NCBI RefSeq assembly: GCF_003938605.1
Contig: NZ_RHWX01000007.1
Coordinates: forward strand, 62,001 to 126,000
Direction of reading: 5' to 3'
Source of the DNA: Brevundimonas sp. 357
GTDB lineage: Bacteria > Pseudomonadota > Alphaproteobacteria > Caulobacterales > Caulobacteraceae
DNA: 64,000 nucleotides
Below the pieces are notes generated by a model. The model made no database searches and was not told the origin of the DNA. It saw only the letters and a program-made list of their open reading frames with translations. Every line of letters begins with the position of its first letter. Position 1 is the first letter of the stretch. Below, one piece after another: positions 32,545-53,246 of this stretch. A program made the translations under genes and the position numbers.

Positions 32545-32588
32545 GGTGGCGCTATCGCTCGCGCCGCGGGCGCTCGCTGCTTGAGCTG
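32545..32588 (+). repeat. Dispersed palindromic element, copy 1
   Basis: A GC-rich imperfect palindrome with the family core ATCGC..GCTGCTTG between short arms (GCT / AGC here, shorter than in other copies). It is 15 bp upstream of the gshB start and a few bases from copy 2, which has the same orientation. Confidence 0.7.
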
Positions 32589-32593
32589 ATTTT

Positions 32594-32639
32594 AGTGGCG
32601 CTAACGTTCGCCCCGCGGGCGCGCGCTGCTTGAGCGCCC
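32594..32639 (+). repeat. Dispersed palindromic element, copy 2
   Basis: Arms GGCGCT and AGCGCC are perfect complements around the core AACG..GCTGCTTG. It is a direct repeat of copy 1, in the gap between sirB1 and gshB. The following 60 bp to the sirB1 stop holds a further degenerate GC-rich stretch and no gene. Confidence 0.75.
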
Positions 32640-35632: not shown

Positions 35633-36886
35633 CTAGACCAGCAGGCTCTTCAGCACCGCGTCCAGCAAGGGACGGCCCGTCGCCGTGGCGGCGACGCGGC
35701 CGTCCTTCAGACTCAGGAAGCCGTCCGTCAGAAGGTCGAACAGCCGGCCCTCAACCGCCGACAGGCCCAGCCGCTGCAGCAGGGCCAAGGGCACGCCCTC
35801 GACGGTGCGCAGGCCCAGCAGCACGCGCTCCTCATCGGCGTCCTGCGGCTCCAGAACCTCGCGCTCGGCCCAGGGCGAACCGGCGGCGACGCCCGCCACA
35901 TAGTCGCCGATGCGGCGCGCAGCCACGGTGGCGATCCGCCCCTCGGCCAGGGTCAGCCGCCCATGCGCCCCCGGCCCCAGGCCCAGATAGTCGCCGCCGC
36001 GCCAGACATGCAGGTTGTGGCTGGAGCGGGCGGCCACGTCGCGCGCGTGGTTGGACACCTCATAGGCCTCGAACCCCGCCGCCTCGAGCGTCGTCTGCGT
36101 GGCTTCATAGAGGGCGGCGGCCAGATCCTCGTCCGGCGGCGACCAGGCGCCGCGCGCCACGGCCCGGCCGAAGGCCGTCGTCCCCTCGATGGTCAGCTGA
36201 TAGGGCGAGACGTGCTCGAACCCCAGATCGAGCGCCGTGGTCAGCTCGGCCGTCCAGTCGGCGACGCCCTGGCCCGGCCGGGCGTAGATCAGGTCAATCG
36301 ACAGCCGCGGAAAGGCCTGCGCGGCCAGGGCGATGGCGCGACGCGCCTCGGCGGCCGAATGATCGCGGCCCAGGAACTTCAGCGCCGCGTCGTCAAACGA
36401 TTGCACCCCCATCGACAGGCGGTTGATCCCGGCCTGGGCCAGAGCGGCGTAGCGCCCGGCCTCCGCGTCGGTGGGATTGGCCTCCAGACTGATCTCAATA
36501 TCGCCAGAAGGAGGGAACAGCGCCCTAGCCCGCGCCGTCACCGCCGCCACGGCGTCGGGCGGCATCAAGGACGGCGTGCCCCCGCCGAAGAAGATCGAGG
36601 CCAGGGCGCGCGGCCCGACCAGGGCGGCCTGCGCCTCCAGGTCGTTCAGGATGGCCTGCGCCAGCTCCGCCTGCTCCTGCGTCCGCCCCCGGTCGCGCAC
36701 CACGTTGAAGTCGCAATAGGGACAGATGCGCGCGCAGTAGGGCCAGTGGACATAGAGGGCGATGGAGTCTTTTTCGTCCCTATCGCCGCCCTCGCGGAGG
36801 GCGGCTGCTTGAGGGACAGATTGATGCTCGCCTCGATCGCCGCCTTGGCGCAGGGCCGCGGCTTGTGGGGCGGTCCTCTCAGTCAA
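35633..36886 (-). CDS. hemW: HemW-type radical SAM heme chaperone with repeat-derived N-terminus
   Basis: A 417-residue radical SAM protein. [18 protein letters not shown] has the CxxxCxxC cluster motif, followed by [10 protein letters not shown] and the C-terminal HemW region ([25 protein letters not shown]). HemW inserts or protects heme for respiratory enzymes; it is often misnamed coproporphyrinogen oxidase HemN. The only usable start is TTG at 36886, overlapping the rdgB stop. The first 36 residues are two tandem 18-residue units, [18 protein letters not shown] and [18 protein letters not shown], encoded by two palindromic elements. The rest is a normal HemW. Confidence 0.9.
36776..36817 (-). 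repeat. Dispersed palindromic element, copy 3, in frame in hemW
   Basis: Arms GTCCCT and AGGGAC, core ATCGCC..GCTGCTTG and an inner GCCGCCCTC/GAGGGCGGC stem. On the hemW coding strand it reads [14 protein letters not shown]. The arm sequence is identical to that of copy 7 at 53205. Confidence 0.75.
36829..36874 (-). repeat. Dispersed palindromic element, degenerate copy 4, in frame in hemW
   Basis: A diverged copy with arms CGCC../..GGCG and inner GCCGC..GCGGC, placed 54 nt from copy 3 and in the same frame. It encodes [15 protein letters not shown], almost the same peptide as copy 3. Confidence 0.6.
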
Positions 36887-37481
36887 TCAGCGCCGCCTTG
36901 AGGCGGGCGAAGGCGCGCGCGCGGTGGCTGAGAGCGTCCTTCTCGACCGGGTCCATCTCGCCGAAGGTCAGGGCGGAGCCTTCCGGCCGGAAGATCGGAT
37001 CATAGCCGAAGCCCCGGTCGCCGCGCGGCGGGAAGACCAATTCGCCGTCAATCCGCCCCTCGACCACTACGCAAGGGCCGTCGGGCCAGGCCACGGCCAG
37101 GGCCGAGGTGAACCAGGCGCGGCGGTCGGTCGAGGCGATCTCCTCCAGCCGCTGCTCCACCTTCTTCATGGCCAGTGCGAAATCCTTGGTCGGCCCGGCC
37201 CAGCGCGCGGAATAGATGCCCGGCGCCCCGTCCAGGGCTGCGACCGACAGGCCGGAATCGTCGGCCAGGGCGACCTCGCCCGAGGCCTGGGCCGCGTGGC
37301 GCGCTTTCAGCATGGCGTTGCCGACGAAAGTGGTCTCCGTCTCGTCCGGTTCAGGCAGATTCAGCTCTCCGGCGGTGACGATCGTGTAATGTCCGTCAAG
37401 CAGCGCTTCGATCTCGCGCGCCTTGCCCGGATTGTGGGTGGCGGCGACGAGCCGCATCCCCTTGATCAGCTTGAGATTCAT
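36879..37481 (-). CDS. rdgB: Non-canonical purine NTP pyrophosphatase (RdgB/HAM1)
   Basis: A 200-residue housekeeping enzyme that hydrolyses dITP, XTP and similar to monophosphates, keeping them out of [22 protein letters not shown] is the family N-terminus; [25 protein letters not shown] and GFGYDPIF are the substrate and metal-binding signatures. The ATG at 37481 or an internal ATG at 37457 are both plausible. Its stop overlaps the TTG start of hemW by 8 bases, a pairing conserved in alphaproteobacteria. Confidence 0.95.
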
Positions 37482-53204: not shown

Positions 53205-53246
53205 GTCCCTGTCGCCTCGCACGCGGTGCGAGGCTGCCTGAGGGAC
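53205..53246 (+). repeat. Dispersed palindromic element, copy 7
   Basis: Arms GTCCCT and AGGGAC with an inner GCCTCGCAC / GTGCGAGGC stem (9 bp) and GCTGCCTG in place of GCTGCTTG. It fills the phoH-miaB gap and would form a hairpin in the shared transcript. Confidence 0.75.

Follow-up and report, generated by a model that had tools for sequence, protein, structure and literature searches.

The window, the whole 64,000-nucleotide stretch of Brevundimonas DNA analyzed here, carries the gene pair rdgB and hemW on its minus strand. The hemW gene (positions 35633-36886) encodes a radical SAM heme chaperone and is composed of 417 codons plus stop. Its open reading frame matches TIGR00539, Radical_SAM and HemN_C, and the TIGR00539 score of 263.2 bits, against a cut-off of 205.4, identifies the product as HemW. 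The cysteines of the CxxxCxxC motif (C51, C55 and C58) are invariant across the 38 rows of the alignment. The preceding gene, rdgB (36879-37481), encodes an XTP/dITP diphosphatase recognized by TIGR00042 and Ham1p_like. The two genes overlap by 8 nt. The hemW start TTG (36884-36886) is located inside the last rdgB codons, ATT GAC TGA, and is itself preceded by an in-frame TGA. It is the sole canonical in-frame start of the gene, and the stretch from the rdgB end to the radical-SAM cysteine motif CARICPYC contains neither ATG nor GTG in the hemW frame. A preliminary description of the locus had correctly stated that hemW lacks an ATG and that this TTG is its only start; it had placed the TTG in the rdgB stop, which is inexact, as the codon sits just 5' of the stop TGA (36881-36879).

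The beginning of hemW is formed by two 36-nt repeats on the minus strand, REP1 (36832-36867) and REP2 (36778-36813), separated by a linker (36814-36831). The repeats are 79% identical to each other, and each is read as 12 residues. The translation of the open reading frame agrees with the earlier proposal that both repeats are read in the hemW frame as two peptides. They had also been described as two palindromic elements 54 nt apart; the spacing holds from start to start, but of the two, REP2 alone has remained a good palindrome. Its RNA forms a perfect hairpin, with a folding energy of -24.1 kcal/mol and a z of -3.69, whereas that of REP1, a decayed copy, folds no better than shuffled sequences (z +0.41).

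HemW residues 1-37, which are mostly derived from the repeats, precede the confidently folded core. In an AlphaFold model built from the 38-row alignment, the first core strand comprises residues 41-47, and 320 of the 417 residues reach a pLDDT of at least 90, with weaker blocks at 51-70. Residues 1-37 have pLDDT values below 50, which may stem from the few alignment rows that carry the tail.

The hemW start codon across the genus

We compared the junction in a sample of 131 Brevundimonas genomes, 128 of which yielded a hemW locus (G005, G013 and G070 did not). Both genes could be placed in 124 of the 128, the other four junctions being unplaceable. In 100 of the 124 junctions, an in-frame start overlaps the end of rdgB and leads into a frame that stays open as far as the core; it is TTG at -5 in 91 and at -8 in 9, with spacers of 16 to 124 nt. 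In 83 of these 100 it is the sole canonical start. Since membership of this class of 100 requires such a start, its whole-codon spacers and its ATT codons are partly circular as evidence, and the figures free of circularity are those of a frame-blind test and of the rdgB isoleucine codon. In the frame-blind test, which covered the first 96 junctions, TTG is present at -5 in 75, of which 72 are in phase with the core and 71 open. The isoleucine codon of rdgB that supplies the TTG is ATT in 99 and ATC in 3 of the 102 junctions with isoleucine among the last three rdgB codons. ATT is rare elsewhere, making up 29 of 364 isoleucine codons (8%) in 30 hemW bodies, and all three ATC junctions belong to the 24 that start elsewhere. 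We read the excess of ATT as selection on the hemW TTG, in repeat-bearing and repeat-free genomes alike.

The other 24 of the 124 junctions have spacers of 123 to 218 nt (one of 47), with phases distributed 10/10/4, and their nearest start lies inside the spacer, as ATG in 20 and TTG in 4. Comparison of the junctions places the start of the repeat-free relatives at the same position. A start codon conserved downstream of the repeats was looked for in the relatives, and such codons occur in scattered genomes only. An extra canonical start is present in the spacer of 12 of the 71 open TTG junctions, at varied positions, none of them conserved; an example is the GTG before ALYVHW in loci L013, L027, L170, L201 and L203. 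Among the REP-bearing junctions, an ATG within the repeat could act as a start in two of twelve (L019 and L143), and L013 has a GTG adjoining the core. This also concerns HemW annotation: across most of the genus, translation probably begins at the TTG within rdgB.

Several junctions are filled by other sequences. In L008, L009, L011, L012 and L015, a different repeat-like insert occupies the rdgB-hemW spacer, and hemW apparently starts at an ATG inside it, encoding M... PPHPSGSAAHLLP.GEKG before the core; the insert is apparently a second repeat-like sequence that supplies the HemW start codon and residues. The spacers of L017, L018, L021, L023, L029 and L030 are 137-174 nt long, and hemW starts near the core at ATG (TTG in L018). 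Some of these spacers contain short repeats, of the GTGATTGG kind on one side and of the AATCACCAACC kind on the other, and perhaps represent a MITE-like element.

Repeats in the hemW junction

REP is present in 12 of the 124 junctions, as two copies in eight and as one copy in four, and was not seen in the remaining 112. All twelve REP-bearing junctions have the repeat on the same strand and the reading frame intact, and the eight two-repeat junctions differ in length by a single codon, in L007. Brevundimonas naejangsanensis (L037), a repeat-bearing strain, shares the 121-nt spacer and the start of the present junction. The single repeat of L019 and L143 is flanked by two near-copies of the DPGTDVA codons, resembling a target-site duplication.

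The changes in REP1 between the two subclades with two repeats are mostly synonymous, for example CGA versus AGG for one arginine. The pN/pS of REP1 is 0.26 in frame and 1.9 and 2.0 in the other frames, and that of the first 250 core codons of hemW is 0.39. Under a simple mutation model, P for REP1 ranges from 0.001 to 0.17 over five pairs, which are non-independent; for the stretch that runs from REP1 up to the core, the same model gives 0.001 to 0.06. Taken by itself, the REP1 selection test is moderate evidence for coding, and weak evidence where single pairs are considered. REP2 shows no coding constraint by itself: its pN/pS is 0.79 in the hemW frame and 0.56 in one of the others. Its hairpin is strong in seven of the eight genomes (-21 to -24 kcal/mol; -16.9 in L007), and in L003 and L005/L006 paired changes preserve it, with L replaced by F and E by K. 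For REP1, four of the eight genomes have a weaker hairpin, with MFE values of -13 to -17 versus -19 to -24 kcal/mol.

A single origin of the hemW repeats was considered and rejected: the eight two-repeat genomes are not one clade in the hemW-body tree (AU p 3e-5), because L008 and L009, inside the group, carry the other insert. Repeat presence requires six or more changes among 30 loci, and gains and losses are not separable.

The REP family in the genome and in other genes

The pattern CTCAAGCAGC-N17-GCGATAGGG, with up to three mismatches, has 38 matches in this genome, and its reversed control has 2. Setting aside two non-palindromic matches leaves 36 copies; REP1, with more than three mismatches to the pattern, is not among the 38. 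The arms of the 36 copies match each other in 82% of cells; shuffling the arms among copies gives 61% on average and never more than 68%. The family ends near CTCAAGCAGC and GCGATAGSG, and its arms are variable and self-complementary. It thus has the form of a REP, a 20-40 bp palindrome in many dispersed copies. At up to one mismatch, it is present in 127 of the 131 Brevundimonas genomes, with one match in the control column (G101). The idea that the two hemW palindromes arose by chance or by local duplication, outside any dispersed family, might draw on their adjacency and 79% identity, but it is already refuted by these counts and by the identical 36-mer in tsaE, and we give it almost no weight.

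The RAYT (Y1 transposase, PF01797), sought as a mobilizer of REP, is absent from this genome; it was detected in 4 of the 131 genomes of the genus and in 5 of 14 control genomes.

Four of the 36 copies were recognized in genes, namely hemW, gspJ, tsaD and tsaE, the latter three families being named from NCBIfam and Pfam. By a crude codon score, the remaining copies have no convincing gene across the element. Further copies are located in the window on the minus strand, at 32550-32585 and 32599-32634, which form a close pair, and at 53207-53242; the same score finds no convincing gene across them. Open frames across the own-genome repeats L120, L118, L127 and L130 have no Pfam match and were regarded as spurious. 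In trxA (L119) and a DUF1428 gene (L136), REP lies in an open frame a few codons 5' of the likely ATG. These two genes and a FabH-like gene (L211) were rejected as repeat-coding, since the repeat precedes the family match and probably also the start codon. The trxA and DUF1428 repeats are probably 5' untranslated and could be misannotated as N-terminal coding sequence.

For each of the other three host genes we compared 30 loci, the best-scoring of 127 (tsaE), 130 (tsaD) and 95 (gspJ) matching genomes, which lean to near relatives; two weak matches of the repeat scan away from the site (one of two in L327, one in L347) were left uncounted. In tsaE (L032), a 36-mer identical to REP2 (G000:C11:96612-96647) is located at codon 152 of 188 and is read as 12 residues, with conserved residues after it. 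The repeat occupies this site in 8 of the 30 loci, always in the same frame and stop-free. It is found in L270-L273 and L276 and, with other arms, in the farther loci L278, L279 and L283, whereas L277 and L286 carry EDGEGRLA, a short form. In tsaD (L034), the copy is at codon 294 of 401, inside the Pfam match, and is read as LKQPSPVGEAIG. Seventeen of the 30 loci carry the repeat, all in one frame, which differs from that of tsaE; of the other thirteen, ten show a short form like AEAHEHRLFVVAGGV, and another insert is present in three (L310, L312 and L315). By sequence match, TsaD residues 282-310 are matched against five residues in the solved chain 3zet_B. At this one site, tsaD has 15 distinct copies, which differ in their arms, yet 87% of cells are paired, compared with a shuffled mean of 76%; none of 2000 shuffles reaches 87%, which is no true probability as the sequences are related. 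In gspJ, 8 of the 30 loci have one or two copies that separate the ATG from the GFTLVE motif, and L337 has only MKSRT there. In L335 and L336, two tandem REPs are present in the GspJ prepilin leader, upstream of GFTLVE.

Probable coding repeats, their rivals and known systems

We interpret the hemW repeats, with a probability of about 0.9, as REP copies translated from the rdgB-overlapping TTG as a tolerated N-terminal tail. As members of a genus-wide family of 36-nt REPs, two copies would have entered, in an ancestor of the clade, the short spacer between the TTG start and the first HemW β-strand. Their 36-nt length and stop-free frames would have left hemW open, so that ribosomes could start at the overlapping TTG, probably coupled to the termination of rdgB, and read both repeats. 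The product would carry a 37-residue, probably disordered tail, which HemW may tolerate as cargo. More generally, a REP with two open sense frames in use could enter a permissive spot with the frame unbroken; in hemW, this spot would be the linker from the start codon fixed in rdgB to the first barrel strand. We infer the use of the TTG, the re-initiation after rdgB driving it, the neutrality of the tail and the movement of the repeat to this site from sequence comparison.

The preliminary description had offered two readings, a mobile palindrome turned coding, as in Rickettsia, or untranslated repeats followed by an unusual start further in. In the latter, the repeats would be 5' untranslated and translation would begin beside the core, for example at the ATC of I42 or at a CTG. 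The absence of an ATG from hemW speaks for it, and TTG is generally a weak start codon. Di Nocera et al. 2013 also caution, in their survey, that many N-terminal REPs may be extragenic (PMC3733652). However, all eight two-repeat genomes, which lack a canonical start from the TTG to the core other than the TTG itself, would need a non-canonical one, and the rdgB-overlapping start is the only one in 83 of the 124 junctions. Such a start also leaves unexplained the ATT bias in rdgB, the conservation of the TTG in repeat-free relatives, the frame kept in twelve of twelve REP-bearing junctions, and a REP1 peptide that is held while the REP1 palindrome decays. Copies of the same family are in frame inside tsaD and tsaE and downstream of the gspJ ATG, beside repeat-free orthologues, and a purely 5' untranslated account therefore fails for the family. 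We regard it as very improbable for hemW, and these observations favor translated repeats.

It is also conceivable, and compatible with translation from the TTG, that the repeats persist chiefly because they form an RNA or DNA hairpin, an attenuator or mRNA-stability element that adjusts hemW relative to rdgB. The paired changes that keep the REP2 hairpin despite residue changes (L003, L005/L006) and the palindromy of the tsaD copies (87% versus 76% when shuffled) are consistent with this, but four of the eight genomes have a weaker REP1 hairpin and L007 a weaker REP2 hairpin (-16.9), and 112 of the 124 junctions were without a REP. Template-switch repair can moreover maintain palindromes without selection. 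We consider such a hairpin role rather unlikely as the main reason for the repeats. The palindromes may have been re-perfected by renewed insertion, hairpin selection or template switching. We tentatively speculate that a RAYT-less REP family repeatedly inserts in frame at the same small set of permissive sites in conserved genes, with hairpins continually re-perfected even in coding sequence, by a mobilizer or by replication template switching, as a DNA-level process that would rewrite housekeeping proteins.

Brevundimonas is a free-living genus. The Rickettsia hosts of the Rickettsia palindromic elements (RPE), in contrast, are described as obligately intracellular (PMC3767692). Intracellular Rickettsia and Wolbachia provide the best-known cases of protein-coding palindromes, and weak selection offers a ready explanation there. 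In the present case, the same pattern is found in hemW, tsaE, tsaD and gspJ beside repeat-free relatives, in a free-living genus sampled by 131 genomes. With such relatives alongside, the gain, loss, frame choice and cost of the repeats are directly testable in Brevundimonas. We found no report of in-gene REPs of Brevundimonas in the openly licensed literature, which is no proof of absence.

The Caulobacter intergenic repeats (CIR) resemble the REP family in being dispersed repeats, in a related genus. They differ from it, as described, in their length of about 110 bp, their GANTC, their stops in all six frames and in not being found inside genes (PMC2229807). The in-ORF REPs of the GTAG and CGTC super-families resemble the Brevundimonas family in being palindromes of 20-40 bp with many copies, some of them within ORFs; most of theirs are intergenic (PMC3733652). 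The CGTC families are reported as commonest in Alphaproteobacteria and as having no dedicated transposase (Di Nocera et al. 2013, PMC3733652). The literal tags of the super-families are, however, missing from most copies of this genome, with GACG on the right flank in 1 of 36 and CGTC on the left flank in 3 of 36; positions 31-34 are ATAG in 22 of 36 and GTAG in 2 of 36. The main text of the survey by Di Nocera et al. 2013 names neither Brevundimonas nor Caulobacter (PMC3733652), and our analysis differs from it in testing the start codon against repeat-free relatives.

The RPEs and their Wolbachia equivalents are likewise short palindromes in frame in conserved protein genes, with intergenic copies too (PMC2229807, PMC3733652); the likeness drawn here is one of behavior. 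RPE hosts are described to include tRNA-modification genes, such as that of tRNA pseudouridine synthase B, to which tsaD and tsaE correspond here. The elements differ in size, 36 nt in Brevundimonas versus 105-146 bp in Rickettsia (PMC2229807). R. conorii proteins with an N-terminal RPE-1 are reported to be expressed in vivo (PMC3733652), and a Rickettsia guanylate kinase with an RPE to be active with altered affinity (PMC2229807). As with RPEs, hemW, tsaE, tsaD and gspJ combine in-frame insertion with insert-free orthologues, and one element is read in different frames, frame 1 in hemW, tsaE and gspJ and frame 0 in tsaD (LKQP..EAIG). By this analogy, the behavior of the Brevundimonas repeats is that of the Rickettsia palindromic elements and of the surveyed in-ORF REPs.
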